Source: an uncultured Blastocatellia bacterium (GTDB taxonomy: Bacteria > Acidobacteriota > Blastocatellia > Chloracidobacteriales > Chloracidobacteriaceae). From it: a stretch of DNA of 59,500 bases. Made by a program: the position numbers and the translations under genes. How positions within the stretch are numbered: the first letter of the stretch is position 1; each line of letters starts with the position of its first letter. The DNA is taken from positions 1-59,500 of the forward strand of contig CALGZC010000020.1 in the NCBI GenBank assembly GCA_937934745.1. Direction: 5' to 3'. Under the pieces are notes generated by a model, which saw nothing but the letters and a program-made list of their open reading frames with translations, was not told the origin of the DNA and ran no database searches. Shown here one piece after another: positions 3,031 to 25,581 of this stretch.

Positions 3031-3076
3031 AACAATCGTGTAGCGGTCGCTAGTGACGGCGTCAGTTGCAGCTCCG

Positions 3077-3880
3077 ATGGAGATAGAGTTTCTCGGTACG
3101 GGAACCTCGGTTGGTATCCCTATGATTGGCTGTGAGTGCGCCACCTGTACTTCGGACGATCCACGCGACCGTCGTTTACGGGTGTCACTACTGGTTCGTT
3201 ACCGCGGCGCACAGATTTTGATCGACCCGGCAATTGATTTCCGGCAGCAGGCGCTACGCGCTGGGTTGAAGTCTCTAGATGCCGTACTCATCACGCATGC
3301 CCACGCCGACCACGTCTTCGGGATTGACGATCTGCGGGCACTCAACTACCGCCAGGGCCCAATGCCGTGCTTTGCCAGTGCCGAGACCTGGCGCTATCTC
3401 TACCGCATGTTCGGCTACGCCTTCGGGCCACCGGGGCCGTCAAGCCGTCCCCGCCTAATACCGCACCTGATCGGCGGTGACTTTTCGCTCTGCGGCCTGC
3501 ACGTCACCCCGGTCGAGCTGCCACACGGAGACATGACCACGCTCGGTTTCCGACTCAATGATTTTGCCTACATCACCGACTGTAGCGCGATTCCCGATGC
3601 AGCCTGCGAACGGCTTCTGGGGTTGGATACCCTGGTCCTCGACTGCGTGCGCTACACACCCCACCCGACGCATCTGCACCTTCAGGCCGCACTGGACTAT
3701 ATTGCGCGGTTGCAGCCGAAGCGGGCCTACTTGACGCACATGGCGCATGACATCCGCCATACTGACCTAGAGGGGCGTTTGCCGCCCGGCGTTTGCTTAG
3801 CCTACGACGGGTTGCGCATTGCAGTGCGTCAGGTGATAAGTGTGGGCGCAGCATGCGGCTCTGAGGTCAGGGCCGGTTAG
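3077..3880 (+). CDS. Metallo-beta-lactamase fold hydrolase (PhnP-like)
   Basis: 267 residues from the ATG at 3077; a GTG at 3053 would add 8. The protein opens MEIEFLGTGTSVGIPMIGC, as in PhnP and related phosphodiesterases. The metal site THAHADH gives His74, His76, Asp78 and His79; later motifs are ELPHGD and YITD with downstream Asp/His residues (LTHMAHDIRHTDLE). PhnP members also bind a structural zinc through early cysteines, and CECATC is present here. Family members cleave cyclic phosphodiesters; no phosphonate genes are nearby, so the substrate is unknown. It opens a cluster with truA and uppS. No clear ribosome-binding site. Confidence 0.85.
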   Translation: MEIEFLGTGTSVGIPMIGCECATCTSDDPRDRRLRVSLLVRYRGAQILIDPAIDFRQQALRAGLKSLDAVLITHAHADHVFGIDDLRALNYRQGPMPCFASAETWRYLYRMFGYAFGPPGPSSRPRLIPHLIGGDFSLCGLHVTPVELPHGDMTTLGFRLNDFAYITDCSAIPDAACERLLGLDTLVLDCVRYTPHPTHLHLQAALDYIARLQPKRAYLTHMAHDIRHTDLEGRLPPGVCLAYDGLRIAVRQVISVGAACGSEVRAG

Positions 3881-7103: not shown

Positions 7104-8165
7104 CTAATGTCGCCGCTGTAGCATAAAGTCAGCATAGAGGTCGAGCAGGGTGCGATGCGGGCCGGACGGGAGAACCGCTAAGTGGCGCTTAGCCTCGACA
7201 AGGTATTCAATGGCTAAATTGCGTGCAAAGGCAATCGAACCGGTTTCCTCAAGCAGGGCGATTACCTCCGGCAGCTCGCCGTTGAGGTCGCGTTTGCCGA
7301 GCAGCTCCAGAAAGCGTGCGCGGGCAGCTGGCCGTGCGTGCTTGAGAAAGTGAATGACGATGAGCGTCTTTTTACCTTCCCGAATGTCCAACCCCAGAGG
7401 CTTGCCAAGCCGTAGTGGATCGGCCTGCAAGTCTAGAACGTCGTCCCAGATTTGAAACGCTGTGCCGATTTTCTCCCCGAAGGTCGCCATTGCTGCAAGA
7501 CTGTCCTCATTAGCATCGGCCGTCAACATGCCAAACATGCAGCCTGCCCGGTAAAGCGCCGAAGTTTTGCGCATCGCCATGGTGAGATAGTCTTGCACCT
7601 CAAGATCAAGCCGTCGCTCAAACTGCAGGTCGTCGCACTGGCCATAGCACATTTGCTTTGCAGTCTGCCCCAGTACGTGCACCATCCGCAGGGCATGGCG
7701 GCGAATGCGTGATGCTTGCTCAACGGCTTTGGCATAAAGTAAGTCGCCCACCAATAATGCCAGGCTCAGTCCGAAGCGCGTGTGCAGCGTTGGTTGTCCG
7801 TGGCGCTCCGAACTGCCGTCCATCAAATCGTCGTGAATGAGCGACAGGTTGTGCAGATACTCGACCGCCAGTGCTGGCGGAATGGCATCGTGCAGCGCGC
7901 CGCCGGCGGCTTCCGCCGTTGTGATCACCAGGAATGGGCGTAAACGCTTGCCCTTGCCTTCAAACAAATACGTTACCGCCCGCCGCAATTCTGGCTGACT
8001 AACTTCACATAGGTCCTCGGCAATGGCCGCGTCCACAAGACGGGCAACGGCTTGGACGCGCTCCAGCAGCGGCAGGAAGACCGGTGCCACGGCCGGTTCT
8101 GCAGCGGGAAGGGCAAGGCTGTTGGCTGCGGCGGCTGTTGTGATTGGGGGCATCGGCTTCGTCAT
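7104..8165 (-). CDS. Trans-polyprenyl diphosphate synthase
   Basis: 353 residues. Both aspartate-rich motifs are present: DDLMD at 112-116 and DDVLD at 241-245; GKGKRLRPFL is the upstream conserved block. The residues four and five places before the first motif are Ser and Leu, not aromatic, which in this family allows products of C20 or longer; the product could be geranylgeranyl diphosphate or a quinone side chain. It overlaps the upstream gene by 4 bases (stop and start share 8162-8165), so the two are translationally coupled. It is convergent with the TPR membrane gene, 141 bases apart, with no good terminator between. Confidence 0.92.
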   Translation of the reverse strand: MTKPMPPITTAAAANSLALPAAEPAVAPVFLPLLERVQAVARLVDAAIAEDLCEVSQPELRRAVTYLFEGKGKRLRPFLVITTAEAAGGALHDAIPPALAVEYLHNLSLIHDDLMDGSSERHGQPTLHTRFGLSLALLVGDLLYAKAVEQASRIRRHALRMVHVLGQTAKQMCYGQCDDLQFERRLDLEVQDYLTMAMRKTSALYRAGCMFGMLTADANEDSLAAMATFGEKIGTAFQIWDDVLDLQADPLRLGKPLGLDIREGKKTLIVIHFLKHARPAARARFLELLGKRDLNGELPEVIALLEETGSIAFARNLAIEYLVEAKRHLAVLPSGPHRTLLDLYADFMLQRRH

Positions 8166-8731
8166 CGGCGGCTCCCAATGACCAGTCGACTCGGCCGCTC
8201 ACGCGCCGACAGCGGTTCCTCGGTGACCGAAGCCGTTGGTGCAGAAGCCGGTATCGCGGCCAAGTCTTGCAGCCTCCGCTCAAGACGGCGGCGCTCAAAG
8301 GAACTGATTTCAGGAAACGCTTCGAGGTACGCACAGTATGCTGCGCAGGCGCCTCGGGTATCGCCGGCATACTCTAGCGCCCGCCCCAGCCAGGAGGCTG
8401 CTGCCCGCTGCAGCTCACGGTCGGTCTGAGGTGCCAACGCCACTCGCCGGAAATGCAACACGGCCTCCGCATACGCCCGCCGGCGAATGCAAACCTCCCC
8501 GAGCGCATACACATCCCGCCAGTCAACCTGGTCGCCGCTGGCAGCCTGCTGCAATTCTTGCGTCAGGGTTGCCAGCAAGCGTGCCTCTGCTGAGGGGCGC
8601 ACCCGCAACCACCAACGCCGCGCCCAGATTACCGGTGGCGTCAGCCGACGGAGGACCCACCAGGTCCAGCGTGGAGACCACAGTGCAAGGCGGGCTGCCG
8701 CAGCCACCACTCGAAACTTGAAAGATGCCAT
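8162..8731 (-). CDS. Small TPR-like helical protein
   Basis: 189 residues, first gene of a two-gene operon with the polyprenyl synthase. The first 45 residues are basic and tryptophan-rich (LWSPRWTWWVLRRL), perhaps a membrane anchor. Residues about 70-140 carry TPR-like helices (VDWRDVYALGEVCIRRRAYAEA, AGDTRGACAAYCAYLEAFPE). The C-terminal 35 residues are disordered. No family recognised; a partner or regulator of isoprenoid synthesis is only a guess from the coupling. Confidence 0.7.
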   Translation of the reverse strand: MASFKFRVVAAAARLALWSPRWTWWVLRRLTPPVIWARRWWLRVRPSAEARLLATLTQELQQAASGDQVDWRDVYALGEVCIRRRAYAEAVLHFRRVALAPQTDRELQRAAASWLGRALEYAGDTRGACAAYCAYLEAFPEISSFERRRLERRLQDLAAIPASAPTASVTEEPLSARERPSRLVIGSRR

Positions 8732-8843
8732 GCCAATGTCCTTGGTAAACGCACGCTGCGGGAACTCGTCCTACCATCCTACCCGAAGCCGGTTTAGTGA
8801 ACCAAGCCTCCGGACAAGCTTTCTACCGAAACGCCTCGCAATC

Positions 8844-8878
8844 AATGTGGGGCGCCCGACCGTCGGACGCCCCACATT
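8844..8878. repeat. Near-perfect 17-bp palindrome
   Basis: Arms 8844-8860 and 8862-8878 are complementary except one position, which becomes a G-U pair if transcribed from the minus strand. The centre is a single base, so as RNA the loop would need to open a few pairs. No T-tract follows on either strand, so it is not an ordinary terminator. It could be a protein-binding site or a short repetitive palindromic element. Confidence 0.65.
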
Positions 8879-9233
8879 CGCGCTGTCGGTTGCCTTACCG
8901 ACCCACGAAGTTTTGACGCGCACCGCAACCCCCCAAGCGTCAAGAGACTTGAAAACTCCCCCCGGAGTCGTCGTTCCAAGCCTCCAAACAAAAGCGATGC
9001 GCGCCAAGCCTGCATCATCTCGCTGAGCTGTGCCGACAGCTGGTGTTCTGCCACCGATGTTGGCTGCCGTTTGTAGCTCACACTGCAAGCCTACAGAAAA
9101 CGCTCAAATCGGTCAAGTTAATTTGCAAAGTTTTTTCCGAGGGACGGTGAAAGTCGTGCGGAAGGCGTAAGTTAGTTCCTAAGTAGATACAGAAGCGTAG
9201 TTTACTTTTGAGTTTTGACGGTCGACACCTGGG

Positions 9234-9285
9234 TTGACGCAATCGCCGATGTCGCTTAGAGTCTATTAAAAACGTCCAAAACGTT
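9234..9285 (+). promoter_or_regulatory. Candidate promoter and operator of the CarH-like gene
   Basis: TTGACG (9234-9239) and TAGAGT (9257-9262) are 17 bases apart. Just downstream, AACGT (9271-9275) and ACGTT (9281-9285) form an inverted repeat where a repressor could block initiation or elongation. CarH-type repressors bind around the -35/-10 region of their own promoters, so autoregulation is plausible but not shown. Confidence 0.45.
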
Positions 9286-9311
9286 CAGCCTCTCAGCTTA
9301 ACGGTTTTTTC

Positions 9312-10244
9312 GTGCCTCGCTCAAAGCGCTCTCCATCACCTGCCTTTGGTCAGTCGCCGACCTATTCCACGGCTGAAGTCGCACGTCTGTGGGGGGTTAG
9401 CGAATCATCTGTCAAGCGGTGGAGCGATAACGGCCTGTTGCCCTGTGTGCGGACGCCGGGTGGTCATCGGCGGTTCACCTTACAGGCTCTACTAGAGTTT
9501 CAGCGCACCACAGGAGAGAAACTCCTTGCGGAGCAAGGGCAGGGAGCGGGTCTTTCCGATGTGGAGCTGGCCATTGCCGCGCGCGACTGGTCTCAACTGC
9601 AGATGGTTTACTACAAAGTCGCAATTGCCGGGGATGAGGCAACCGGGGCGGCACTTTTAGAACAGTTGTATCGGAGCGGCCTGTCGCCCGTTGAGATCAC
9701 GGAGCAGTTGCTCACACCGGTCTTACACCTGATCGGTGACCGTTGGCGGCGTGGTGAACTCAATATTTGGGAGGAGCATCTGGCGTCACAGGTGACGTTA
9801 GCGGCGACGGAACACCTCCACCGACAGGTCCCACATGCGCCGCCCCAGGGGCGGCTGGCATTGTGCGGTTGCCCGGAAGGTGATTTGCACGAAATTGCCC
9901 TGCATCTGGTGGTCGAGGTACTGGAGACCGAGGGGTGGCGCGTGCTGTCGCTCGGGCCAAATACACCGCTGTTTTCCTTTGCTGACGCCATACAGCGGTT
10001 TGCGCCGCACCTGATCTGTATTTCGGCCACGATTGTACAGGATCTGGAGCGGCTACGACGCGACTATGGGCATTTTTACCAAATGGCCCGTCGGCATGGG
10101 GCGCGTATTGTGATTGGCGGTGCTGCTTTTGCCGACCCACAGGTCCGCAGCATCTTTGTCCATGATTTTCAGGCCGCTGGGCTGAGTGACTTTGTGGAAT
10201 ACCTCCGTCGAGAGTTCCCCACCGTGCCGCCGTCGGAACGGTGA
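9312..10244 (+). CDS. CarH/LitR-type B12-dependent light-sensing transcription regulator
   Basis: 310 residues, GTG start. Residues 17-65 are a MerR-type winged HTH (STAEVARLWGVSESSVKRWS, then RTPGGHRRF). Residues about 85-175 are the four-helix cap domain and about 180-305 a Rossmann-like B12-binding domain. Two diagnostic features of adenosylcobalamin photoreceptors are seen: the Wx9EH motif (Trp145, Glu155, His156) and the lower-ligand histidine in DLHEIA (His193). In characterised CarH, the dark AdoCbl form represses DNA and light breaks the Co-C bond and releases it. No ribosome site is visible, so translation may be leaderless or weak. cobQ is 14 kb downstream. DNA targets are unknown; carotenoid or photo-oxidative genes are usual. 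Confidence 0.88.
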   Translation: MPRSKRSPSPAFGQSPTYSTAEVARLWGVSESSVKRWSDNGLLPCVRTPGGHRRFTLQALLEFQRTTGEKLLAEQGQGAGLSDVELAIAARDWSQLQMVYYKVAIAGDEATGAALLEQLYRSGLSPVEITEQLLTPVLHLIGDRWRRGELNIWEEHLASQVTLAATEHLHRQVPHAPPQGRLALCGCPEGDLHEIALHLVVEVLETEGWRVLSLGPNTPLFSFADAIQRFAPHLICISATIVQDLERLRRDYGHFYQMARRHGARIVIGGAAFADPQVRSIFVHDFQAAGLSDFVEYLRREFPTVPPSER

Positions 10245-10447
10245 GCGCCGCCAGCGTTCCCGGGGGCAGGGGACGCCGGGACGACGGAAATTCTGCCCTG
10301 ACTGCGTGCGGAAATCATTCCCAAGCGGCGGTAAGTTAGCTAGATTTACATGTCGCAACGGCGCCTGCCGGCGGCGCACAGTCGGTTCTGCTCAATCGGG
10401 CATCTTTTCAACTGGGGATCTGTTCTGCCCCATCGGAGCCCATGGTT

Positions 10448-12478
10448 ATGTCAGTGACAAGAATTGCCGTTTTGCTTTCGGGCTGGCTTGTACTGGGTGA
10501 GCTTGTACTCGGTGAGTCTGTCGCCGTACCGGTACCTCTGCAACAACCATCGCCCAAGCTACAGAAGTCGTCTTCGCCACAGCCGAACGTGTCGCGTGAG
10601 CAACGTCTTAGGGCATACGAGAAATTCCTCCAGGCACGCTGCTATGTCGCCCAGGCCGATCCACTCAACGCAATGACTGCCTTCAAGGAAGTACTGGAGT
10701 TGGACCCGCAGTCGGCGGCGGTTCATGTCGAGCTCGGTAATCTCTATCTCGAAGCCCGTAACCTGCGTGAAGCCGAATACCATGCGCAGCAGGCCGTTGC
10801 ACTCGACCCGGAGAATGCGATGGCGCATTGGCTGCTCGGGCGGTTGCTGTACAGCCAGGCGCTGGGTCCGACGTTCGACCGTGCGAAGGCCCGCGAGGCT
10901 ATCGCTGCGTTTGAAAATGTCGCCCGGTTGGACAGTCTTAACTTGGATGTCTACCGGCTGCTCGGGCGGCTCTACCGCGATCTGAACGACGTGGACAACG
11001 CGCTGTCGGCCTATGCCAAACTCATCGGTGCCAATCAGGGTGGGCCGGAAGAGTTTGACGCAGCGACGGAGCTGTACTTCCGTAAGCGGCGTTACCGCGA
11101 TGCGGCCAGCATGGCGCGGCAGGCGTATGCACTCAGTGGTGAAAATCCTCAGTGGGGCTACAAGCTCTCGCAGGCGCTGCTGTATTCGGGGCAAACGGCG
11201 GAGGCGATTGAGGTGCTCCGTGAGCTGCTCGAAGAAAACGGCAACAACTTGCGGCTGACGCTGAGCTATGCCGAGGCGCTGATGCGTGGCGGGCGCTATG
11301 CTGAGGCCGAACAACAGGTCCAGCGGGTTTTGTCCGTGCGTCCGAACTACCCTGAAGCCCTGTCCATTCTCGCGCAGGTACAGCGGCGCAGCGGCCGCCG
11401 CGAGGAAGCTGTCAAAACCCTCCGGCAGGCGCTGGACGGGCAGGATGTGACCGAGACGCTGCCGCAACAGTACGCTTTGGCGGAAACGCTGGTTGAGTTA
11501 GGGCGGATCGAGGAAGCGGTTGCTGCCTATGAGGCGGCACTGCGCAGCGTTTCCAACCCGGATAACTCCGTGAGTGAAAGCCAGCGCGAGCGGGCCGAAC
11601 TGCTGCTGATGCGCATTGCTGCGGCTTACAAAGCTGCCGGGAAACAGGATCAGGAATTGGCGACCTATGCACGCATGCGCCGCCTACTTGGTGCGGACAG
11701 TACCCTGGCCGACTTGCTTGAGATTGAGTCACTGCGCAGCGAAGGGCGGTACGAAGAAGCCCTCAAGGCGGCACGTGTGGCCCGGCAGCGCTTTCCACAG
11801 GAACGGCAGTTTGTCTACCTCGAAGCGCAGGTTCTCTCCCGTTTGGGACAGCTCGACCAGGCGCTGACCGAGTTGAGGAAGGTTGCGGCGGAAGCGGATG
11901 ATGCCGGGGAAGTAGCGCAAATGCGGGCTATTGTCCTCAGCGATGCCAACCGATTTGAGGATGCCGAACAATCGGCGCGGCAGGCGGTGCGCCACGACGA
12001 GAAGAACATTGCCTACTTGGTGACGCTGAGTTCGATTCTTGAACGCCGCAAACAATACGCCGAATCGGAGCAGCTGCTGCGCACCGTGTTGGCACTCGAT
12101 CCGGACAATCCGACGGCGCTCAACAACCTGGGCTACTTTTTGGCCGAACGCAACGAACGCTTAGATGAAGCGCTGACGCTTGTTCAGCGGGCAGTCAATA
12201 TCGAACCCACCAACAGTTCCTTTCTAGACAGCCTGGGCTGGGTGTACTTCAAGCAGAATCGGCTTGACCTGGCCAAATACTACATCGAGCAGGCGCTCGG
12301 TTATGACCGGCGCAACGCGACGCTCAACGATCACTTGGGCGACGTACTGGAGCGCATGGGCGATCTTGAAGGAGCGCGTCGGCAGTGGAAGCTTGCACGG
12401 AGTCTGGCAACCGACCCGGAAGAAATCAATCGGATTGAAGCCAAATTGCAACGTGGCCAGACGGCCGAAACGCAGTAA
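10448..12478 (+). CDS. Large secreted/periplasmic TPR protein
   Basis: 676 residues from the ATG at 10448, which has GGAG nine bases upstream; an ATG at 10442 is too close to that site. A signal peptide (MSVTRIAVLLSGWLVLGELV) leads into a Pro/Ser linker and then at least ten TPR units from about residue 50 to the end (AMTAFKEVLELDPQSAAVHV, LGNLYLEARNLREAEYHAQQ, ALNNLGYFLAERNERLDEAL). Such proteins scaffold complexes or take part in outer-membrane assembly or polysaccharide export. It is the first of three same-direction genes with the LolC/E-like permease 24 bases on. Confidence 0.85.
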   Translation: MSVTRIAVLLSGWLVLGELVLGESVAVPVPLQQPSPKLQKSSSPQPNVSREQRLRAYEKFLQARCYVAQADPLNAMTAFKEVLELDPQSAAVHVELGNLYLEARNLREAEYHAQQAVALDPENAMAHWLLGRLLYSQALGPTFDRAKAREAIAAFENVARLDSLNLDVYRLLGRLYRDLNDVDNALSAYAKLIGANQGGPEEFDAATELYFRKRRYRDAASMARQAYALSGENPQWGYKLSQALLYSGQTAEAIEVLRELLEENGNNLRLTLSYAEALMRGGRYAEAEQQVQRVLSVRPNYPEALSILAQVQRRSGRREEAVKTLRQALDGQDVTETLPQQYALAETLVELGRIEEAVAAYEAALRSVSNPDNSVSESQRERAELLLMRIAAAYKAAGKQDQELATYARMRRLLGADSTLADLLEIESLRSEGRYEEALKAARVARQRFPQERQFVYLEAQVLSRLGQLDQALTELRKVAAEADDAGEVAQMRAIVLSDANRFEDAEQSARQAVRHDEKNIAYLVTLSSILERRKQYAESEQLLRTVLALDPDNPTALNNLGYFLAERNERLDEALTLVQRAVNIEPTNSSFLDSLGWVYFKQNRLDLAKYYIEQALGYDRRNATLNDHLGDVLERMGDLEGARRQWKLARSLATDPEEINRIEAKLQRGQTAETQ

Positions 12479-24004: not shown

Positions 24005-24042
24005 AACTATCGTCCCCCACTGAAGCTACCATGTCAGCTACC

Positions 24043-25581
24043 ATGTCGGCGCGTGCGTTAATGGTGCTTGGAACGGCGTCTCATGTCGGCAAGTCACTGC
24101 TGGCAACTGGATTGTGCCGTATTTTGCGGCAGAACGGCTATCGTGTTGCGCCTTTCAAGGCACAAAACATGGCGCTGAACTCGGCGGCGACGCCTGACGG
24201 CGGCGAAATCGGTCGAGCGCAGGCGCTGCAGGCCGAAGCCTGTGATCTTGCGCCAACAACCGATATGAACCCGATCCTGATTAAGCCGTCATCCGACCAG
24301 ACGGCGCAGTATGTTGTGCAGGGCAAGGTGTGGCGCAACCTGACGGCGCGCGACTACTTCGATTTTCGTGTCCGTGAGTTGTTCCCACGAGTCTTGGCGA
24401 GCTACCGGCGGCTGGCCGCCCAGTATGATGTGGTCGTCCTGGAAGGGGCCGGCTCGCCGGCCGAAATCAACCTGCGCGACCGTGACATTGTCAACATGCG
24501 CATGGCGCACGCGGCCGACGCGGCGTGTATCTTGGTCGGGGATATTGACCGGGGTGGCGTGTTTGCGGCGCTGGTCGGGACGTTGGTTCTGTTGGACGCG
24601 CAGGATCGGCAACGCATCCGTGGCACGGTGATCAACAAGTTTCGCGGCGACCGGGCCCTGCTTGAGCCGGGGCTGGCGCTGCTGGAAGCCCATACCCGGC
24701 GGCCGTGCGTCGGCGTCGTGCCCTACTTGCCGAACCTCGGCCTCGAGGAGGAAGACAGTGTGGCGTTGGAAAGCCGCCGGACGGCCGCCCAAATGTGGCA
24801 GCCTTTGGATGACGGGCGTGATCGTTTGCTGCGGATCGGCGTTGTGGTGCTGCCGCTGATGTCCAATTTTACGGATTTTGATGCCCTCGCTGCCGAGCCG
24901 TCAGTCGCGTTGGCCTTTCTCGACCGCCCGGAGGACATTGCTGCCGCCGATGTCCTGATTCTGCCGGGAACTAAGCAGACCGTACACGACCTGCGCTTTT
25001 TACATGAGCGAGGTTTTGTGGCGGCGCTGCGCGCCCACGCGCAGCACAAGCCGCTCATCGGTCTCTGCGGGGGGATGCAAATGCTGGGAAGGCGCATCGA
25101 AGACCCTTTTGCCGTGGAAGGCGGTGGCGCAGCGGATGGGCTTGGTTTCCTGCCGATTGTCACCGTCCTACAACGCGAGAAAACGACGACACCGGCAGTC
25201 GGCCGGCTGCGAACACCGACGTTGTTCGGAGTGCCTATCGCCCAGCCGCAGGCCAAAGGCTATGAAATCCACATGGGGGAGACGGTTTATGCACCCGGCG
25301 CCACACCCCTGTTGACCCTGGTGCGAGCAACCGGTGCGACGCTGCCTGACGGTGCCGCTTCAGCCGACGGCCTGGTGATCGGAACGTACTTGCACGGTTT
25401 GTTTGACGACGATGACTTCCGCCGCTCGTTCATCACTGCTGCGCGGACGGCGCTGAATTTAGCTCCGGCAACAGAATTTCAACCCTATCGGGCAGAGCGT
25501 CGCCGCCGACTGGATCGCCTGGCCGACGCCTGTCGGCAGGCGCTGGATGTGGCTGCCATCCAACGCTGGTTGGGTTTTTAG
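24043..25581 (+). CDS. cobQ: Cobyric acid synthase
   Basis: 512 residues from the ATG at 24043, giving the usual MSARALMVLGTASHVGKS; another ATG at 24031 adds four residues. The N-terminal P-loop like synthetase domain includes FKAQNMALNS and VVLEGAGSPAEINL. The C-terminal glutamine amidotransferase domain has the nucleophile in LCGGMQMLG and the His in GTYLHGLFDDD. It amidates four side chains of adenosylcobyrinic acid a,c-diamide. No other cobalamin gene and no B12 riboswitch is seen near it. It may supply the cofactor of the CarH-like regulator. Confidence 0.95.
   Translation: MSARALMVLGTASHVGKSLLATGLCRILRQNGYRVAPFKAQNMALNSAATPDGGEIGRAQALQAEACDLAPTTDMNPILIKPSSDQTAQYVVQGKVWRNLTARDYFDFRVRELFPRVLASYRRLAAQYDVVVLEGAGSPAEINLRDRDIVNMRMAHAADAACILVGDIDRGGVFAALVGTLVLLDAQDRQRIRGTVINKFRGDRALLEPGLALLEAHTRRPCVGVVPYLPNLGLEEEDSVALESRRTAAQMWQPLDDGRDRLLRIGVVVLPLMSNFTDFDALAAEPSVALAFLDRPEDIAAADVLILPGTKQTVHDLRFLHERGFVAALRAHAQHKPLIGLCGGMQMLGRRIEDPFAVEGGGAADGLGFLPIVTVLQREKTTTPAVGRLRTPTLFGVPIAQPQAKGYEIHMGETVYAPGATPLLTLVRATGATLPDGAASADGLVIGTYLHGLFDDDDFRRSFITAARTALNLAPATEFQPYRAERRRRLDRLADACRQALDVAAIQRWLGF

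Follow-up and report, generated by a model that had tools for sequence, protein, structure and literature searches.

Organization of the carH locus

The window, that is the whole stretch of 59,500 nucleotides that was analysed, corresponds to contig C20. Its genome (G000) measures 3.29 Mb and belongs to a family set of 10 genomes (G000-G009) in four genera. A gene for a CarH-type photoreceptor is read rightward, and on the opposite strand a conserved structured RNA, a small TPR-like ORF and a polyprenyl diphosphate synthase gene follow one another (Table 1). The space between is occupied by two divergent candidate promoters, each with a predicted operator box.

Table 1. Features of the carH locus in window coordinates. 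Counts for neighbouring genes refer to the window and eight other genomes (G004 left out).
Feature	Position	Strand	Description
Polyprenyl diphosphate synthase gene	7104-8165	-	IdsA/GGPP-synthase-like; beside carH in 9/9 genomes examined
Small TPR-like ORF	8162-8731	-	Weak profile matches only; downstream of the RNA; in 7/9 genomes examined
Promoter-like element TTGGTT-N18-TAGGAT	8776-8805	-	Precedes the TPR/polyprenyl synthase genes; TTGnnn-N17/18-TAGGAT in 8/10 genomes
Conserved structured RNA	8908-9007	-	100 nt; three stacked helices and two conserved G-rich stretches
Divergent promoter TTGACC-N17-TAGGCT	9088-9116	-	Faces the structured RNA; TTGAC[CT]-N17/18-TAnnnT in 10/10 family genomes
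Distal box AAAACGCTC-AAATCGGTC-A (predicted)	9097-9115	+	Overlaps -35 and spacer of the divergent promoter
carH promoter TTGACG-N17-TAGAGT	9234-9262	+	TTGACN-N15/19-TAnnnT in 9/10 family genomes, absent in G009
Proximal box AAAACGTCC-AAAACGTTC-A (predicted)	9269-9287	+	Two 9-bp direct repeats just past -10; includes the inverted repeat noted earlier
carH-type gene (CtMerR ortholog)	9312-10244	+	GTG start, 310 aa; predicted AdoCbl photoreceptor/repressor; 8JBS match E=1.7e-148
N-terminal winged-helix DNA-binding domain	9360-9506	+	BldC/HTH_17 type; residues 17-65
Four-helix B12-binding subdomain	9618-9818	+	Wx9EH (Trp145, Glu155, His156); Arg146 at the TtCarH His132 place
Rossmann B12-binding subdomain	9858-10133	+	GxxH (lower-axial His193) and GxxxP

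The adjacent synthase is nearest to the IdsA/GGPP synthase models, yet scores below their cut-offs. A second polyprenyl synthase is encoded elsewhere in the genome (351.8 bits against an FPP-synthase subfamily cut-off of 275, and 350 of 460 bits with the CrtE model), so the synthase beside carH cannot be assumed to serve carotenoids. Further away, at 3053-3880, an MBL-fold hydrolase comes near the GPMC system model (309.7 of 360 bits).

The host is a green photosynthetic bacterium, as the first-pass annotation had supposed in calling it a phototroph: two of its genus mates are Chloracidobacterium, a chlorophototrophic genus (PMC4376005, PMC8245765, PMC12816986). The same annotation had taken cobQ as a sign that the cell may make its own B12. 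CobQ is indeed encoded at 24031-25581; own synthesis did not hold up, CbiC of the de novo corrin pathway being not found in the 99.89% complete genome by a search whose control was positive in 7/14 genomes. According to the accessible parts of the literature, the greater part of the B12 pathway is missing from the genus, which probably obtains the cofactor by salvage, auxotrophy or salvage having been reported, and strain BV2-C grew without added B12 on a mix of 13 vitamins (PMC4376005, PMC8245765, PMC12816986). The host thus appears to salvage B12, and CobQ is no proof of de novo synthesis. C. thermophilum requires light, and its cells lyse at more than 50 umol photons m-2 s-1 (PMC4376005); under such conditions a light switch would be of use.

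The CarH-type photoreceptor

The open reading frame had been given as 9234-10244; the frame itself stands, but it begins at 9312, and the -35 hexamer starts at 9234. A stop codon (TAA) in frame at 9267-9269, seen by eye, precludes a longer version. In the domain search the 310-residue protein shows the CarH architecture, a MerR/HTH_17 domain followed by two B12-binding domains. Trp145, Glu155, His156 and His193, on which the earlier assignment to the light-sensing class was built, are present and invariant in 5/5 sequences of an alignment of the window protein with four others, in which the GxxW, GxxH and GxxxP motifs are all retained as well. The residue of the bis-His light state in Thermus thermophilus CarH (TtCarH), His132, is replaced by Arg146, also in 5/5 sequences.

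In the PDB search the structures 8JBS and 8JBT come far ahead of Thermus CarH (1.6e-20 and 2.3e-20). They represent the dark and the light state, respectively, of CtMerR (WP_157850694), whose light-sensing domain constructs bind AdoCbl, undergo photolysis in green light and pass from tetramer to monomer (PMC11796333). CtMerR likewise has Arg at the place of His132, and the residue there varies among photoreceptors (PMC11796333). Ct presumably stands for Chloracidobacterium thermophilum, and on visual comparison the 8JBS sequence closely resembles that of G004. The solved light-sensing domain and the tested light response of this ortholog support the earlier reading of the gene as a CarH-like AdoCbl photoreceptor. 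The NCBIfam CarH equivalog model gives 85.9 bits, below its cut-off of 400, and the name used here is therefore "CarH-type" rather than certified CarH. The prediction that 9312-10244 encodes a CarH-type AdoCbl photoreceptor is supported, and the protein is largely known through CtMerR, with which it shares orthology, identical signature residues and the Arg in question; the additions made here are the predicted DNA sites and the divergent structured RNA. The closest ortholog outside the genus (L097) comes from a record titled Actinomycetota with a scaffold named Acidobacteria, and it falls in the Chloracidobacteriaceae family set.

The CarH proteins of T. thermophilus, Bacillus megaterium and Myxococcus xanthus have the AdoCbl sensor, the Wx9EH motif and the lower-axial His in common with the window protein. 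TtCarH differs in possessing His132, which has no equivalent here, and in its DNA-binding domain.

A DNA-binding domain of the BldC type

The N-terminal domain matches the NCBIfam BldC model with E=2.6e-12 (46.4 bits, below the 77-bit cut-off). Its closest solved relative after CtMerR is BldC (PDB search; 6AMK, 1.6e-6, and 6AMA, 3.8e-6, vs 0.0017 and 0.0026 for TtCarH), so that the domain lies nearer to BldC than to TtCarH. The DNA-binding domain of CtMerR itself has just 25% identity to that of TtCarH, and its authors propose an "alternative DNA-binding site" (PMC11796333); DNA sites or targets of CtMerR are not given in the available parts of that paper, the only one in the literature searched in which CtMerR was found.

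BldC binds sites composed of 9-bp repeats, e.g. AATTCGGAC and AATTCGGTC, with contacts that include Arg30 and His46 (PMC5859096). The places of these two residues correspond, in the PDB-alignment mapping, to Arg36 and His52 of the window protein and are kept in 10/10 family genomes, and the BldC contact Lys26 is a Ser in the same alignment. No second match to this DNA-binding domain was found in the own genome at E<=0.001. Given the nearness to BldC and the conserved Arg30 and His46 places, the CarH-type protein is, as far as the sequence tells, a BldC-type reader of 9-bp repeats fused to a CarH light sensor, which would bind the boxes described below. It resembles BldC of Streptomyces in the type of DNA-binding domain and in the (here predicted) tandem 9-bp repeats of the AATTCGGAC kind, and is unlike it in the fusion, BldC being a protein of 68 residues without an effector domain.

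Two predicted operator boxes

The carH promoter is the sole promoter-like match in 8700-9340 by the consensus scan (shuffles gave 0.2 on average) and coincides with the candidate proposed in the first-pass annotation. Pattern-free alignment of the upstream regions of 8 genomes revealed two conserved sites, not one; the distal site, 172 bp upstream of the proximal one, had been overlooked. A search with a pattern derived from them then gave two boxes per genome in 10/10 family genomes. Of the 21 columns of these 20 sites 12 are invariant, 11 of which the pattern itself demands; the pattern-free alignment shows equal conservation. Each box consists of two 9-bp direct repeats RAANCRNYC and a terminal A, 19 bp altogether. 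The repeat consensus fits 39/40 half-sites, the one exception being in the distal box of G007, and 40/40 carry A at positions 2 and 3 as well as C at position 9, bases that the search pattern fixed. The BldC consensus, with which these predicted half-sites were compared, begins AT-rich and has C as its ninth base.

The exact pattern AACGNYCAAANCRNYCA occurs twice in G000, both times beside carH, and both boxes match it exactly in 7/7 genus genomes; the distal site of G007 has one mismatch. Exact matches away from carH were found in G004 (2), G001 (2) and G006 (1) and, among the matches listed, in G008 (1), G009 (1) and G007 (3). With one mismatch allowed, the totals relative to the reversed-pattern control are 19/8 in G000, 14/13 in G004, 15/5 in G003, 21/9 in G006, 9/2 in G002, 16/10 in G001 and 21/19 in G005 and, among the matches listed, 87/56 in G007, 19/22 in G008 and 48/50 in G009. 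Several totals are near the control, and weak matches are therefore mostly background. In the window, 14 matches with up to three mismatches compare with 8.1 expected by chance; the two boxes have zero mismatches and the other 12 have three. The evidence for the boxes as predicted operators is their conservation across genera rather than the genome-wide count.

As further operators in the own genome, the 17 one-mismatch sites were rejected: they reach matrix scores of at most 17.9, vs 26.2-34.1 for the 20 boxes, and 17/17 are inside frames that run 146 to 913 codons from stop to stop. A site in G001 (L127), with a matrix score of 22.7, was likewise discarded, as it is within an open frame. No box was found within 1.5 kb of 3 SQS_PSY or 2 photolyase-family matches (best score 7.4). 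Two squalene/phytoene synthase-family genes adjoin each other on contig C52 of G000 (L128 and L130), and a third is located on C38 (L129).

TtCarH operators are 11-bp direct repeats (PMC8156234). In the T. thermophilus, B. megaterium and M. xanthus systems, as predicted for the window, direct-repeat operators overlap promoters; the differences are the repeat length (11 bp vs the 9 bp predicted here) and the lack of a predicted box at the carotenoid-type loci tested here. The distance between the boxes varies irregularly across the family genomes (133-178 bp), and DNA looping is therefore not indicated.

The divergent promoter and the structured RNA

The form TTGAC[CT]-N17/18-TAnnnT has a single match on both strands of the window, 1 of 67 occurrences of TTGAC[CT]. 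The consensus scan of 8700-9340 did not report this promoter because its -10 element fits TATAAT at only 3/6 positions. The stretch between the distal box and the RNA is 65-97 bases long and poorly conserved, which is atypical for a small RNA.

The RNA block itself is 0.90-0.98 identical to the window in the 7 closest genomes, vs 0.35-0.52 for the flanks and 0.57-0.71 for carH, and reaches 96-98% within the genus. In G007 and G009 the identity is 0.65, vs 0.22-0.38 for the flanks and 0.47-0.50 for carH, whose start was placed only roughly for G007, G008 and G009 in this comparison. Folding of the single sequence gives z=-4.4 for the minus strand and z=-2.4 for the plus strand. Over 12 copies, 363/369 cells pair on the minus strand (98.4%), 62 of them as G-U, vs 302/369 with 1 G-U on the plus strand. 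The consensus folding energies are -69.4 for the minus strand and -39.1 for the plus strand. Eight base pairs are changed on both sides (shuffled mean 2.1, reached by 0/500) in this 12-copy alignment, which was fitted to the structure and so favours the covariation result; an earlier MAFFT alignment of 10 copies shows 7 such pairs. Of the five covariation measures, one, the number of further pair types, is less pronounced (22 vs 19.4, reached by 37/500 shuffles).

The RNA model matches in 10/10 family genomes and in 0/4 other genomes of the order. In a phylum sample searched with stricter filters the RNA is present in 6/396 genomes, all six in the Chloracidobacteriaceae family set. When 58 relatives were searched at the DNA level alone, the copy in G009 escaped notice, and weak, incomplete matches appeared in G026 (E 0.001) and G042 (E 0.003); both were discounted as copies outside the family, the model yielding 15.2 bits over 48 bases in the former and nothing in the latter. 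Rfam 15 has no match for 8000-11000 of the window at E<=1, nor for the loci L073-L075 at the gathering threshold, so that the RNA, about 100 nt long and covarying, is of the same general kind as the structured bacterial RNAs of Rfam and matches none of the families. No tRNA or tmRNA was found.

G002 and G003 carry two tandem copies. In one Chloracidobacterium genome tandem copies lie at 10261-10360 and 10454-10553 of L068 (193 bp apart), and in a second one at 11210-11309 and 11419-11518 of L069 (209 bp apart). The terminator search in 8700-9340 found 0 (shuffles mean 0.9). Past the RNA, the minus strand contains a hairpin GTCGG..CCGAC (8885-8902) and then a palindrome GTGGGGCG..CGCCCCAC (8847-8875), neither with a T run; a hairpin made of other bases occupies the place of GTCGG..CCGAC in several genomes of the genus. 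In G007 (L074), seven T are found within a few bases of the closing helix, resembling a terminator, a feature missing, by eye, from the other copies. The likeliest reading of the RNA is a separate small RNA, favoured by the intervening promoter-like element and the tandem copies; the RNA may in addition run on into the polyprenyl synthase genes as their leader. The literature on CarH, LitR and Chloracidobacterium small RNAs or riboswitches contains nothing on these boxes or this RNA in the parts available, subscription journals being mostly outside that scope.

Proposed regulation and alternative explanations

Taken together, the features of the locus suggest that the AdoCbl-bound CarH-type protein represses both carH and the divergent structured RNA through the two boxes, and that light or lack of B12 frees both; we consider this to be correct with a probability of roughly two in three. 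In the dark, AdoCbl would hold the protein as a tetramer, as demonstrated for the light-sensing domain of CtMerR. The tetramer would bind the two boxes, of which the proximal one lies at the start of the presumed carH transcript and the distal one covers the divergent -35 and spacer, and so would repress carH and the leftward transcript bearing the RNA. Green light, or the absence of AdoCbl in a B12-salvaging cell, would convert the tetramer to monomers and release both promoters. The existence of the RNA as a transcript and its role are part of the proposal. A box of two repeats provides two sites for a tetramer that has four DNA-binding domains, which counts against the proposal. A further step, put forward tentatively and with less confidence than the repression itself, is that the RNA represents a new structured noncoding family whose transcription is gated by light through a B12 photoreceptor, the signal being passed possibly mainly through the RNA, since the RNA and carH are the only strong targets predicted for the regulator.

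The RNA could instead be the 5' leader of the TPR and polyprenyl synthase genes, a cis-acting attenuator or stability element, with the CarH-type protein controlling a second promoter, inducible by light, for isoprenoid synthesis. The synthase follows the RNA on the same strand wherever examined, the terminator search was empty, and CarH proteins in other bacteria govern carotenoid synthesis (PMC8156234). We nevertheless regard this as unlikely, in view of the promoter-like element that separates RNA and genes in most of the genomes, the tandem duplication of the RNA, and the second synthase, which leaves the adjacent one only putatively carotenoid. A plus-strand RNA with C-rich loops, a remnant of coding sequence or an element acting at the DNA level would account for the two C-rich runs of the plus strand, for its folding better than shuffles and for the short ORFs that cross the block. 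This is very improbable: G-U pairs and consensus energy both point to the minus strand, a minus-strand promoter is present throughout the family, and the RNA copies differ by indels of 1, 2 and 4 bases, which break any frame and disfavour a coding reading.

In respect to the boxes, their recognition by the CarH-type protein is a prediction, and with Lys26 of BldC replaced, another regulator might bind them while the CarH-type protein has other targets. Such an arrangement is improbable, as the exact matches in the own genome are solely beside carH, all the family genomes have boxes there, no second match to this domain was found there at E<=0.001, and the repeat type suits a BldC-type domain. 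The first-pass annotation had proposed a simple self-repressing CarH with the inverted repeat AACGT-N5-ACGTT as its operator. The repeat, AACGTCCAAAACGTT at 9271-9285, is indeed present just past the -10 element, and with one mismatch allowed the window contains somewhat more of these dyads than chance predicts (6 vs 1.95, a level reached by 1/100 shuffles). It is kept at 3/10 proximal sites (window, G001 and G004), vs 20/20 sites for the direct repeat, and was rejected as an operator; a genome search for it, suggested at the time, turned up 3 places (1 for the reversed-pattern control) and lent the idea no support. This model is hardly credible, and what survives of the self-operator is autoregulation, which the direct repeats support as a prediction.

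Repression of carH and the divergent RNA by the CarH-type protein, if correct, would combine parts already known separately, the light sensor of CarH and a domain of the BldC type that reads 9-bp repeats. The light response of CtMerR has been studied and its DNA target is absent from the accessible parts of that work (PMC11796333); the predicted boxes supply a precise, testable operator and regulon. The structured RNA is a new object for study, and a direct switch from light to RNA is predicted. In a phototroph that salvages B12, this switch would report the B12 supply besides light.
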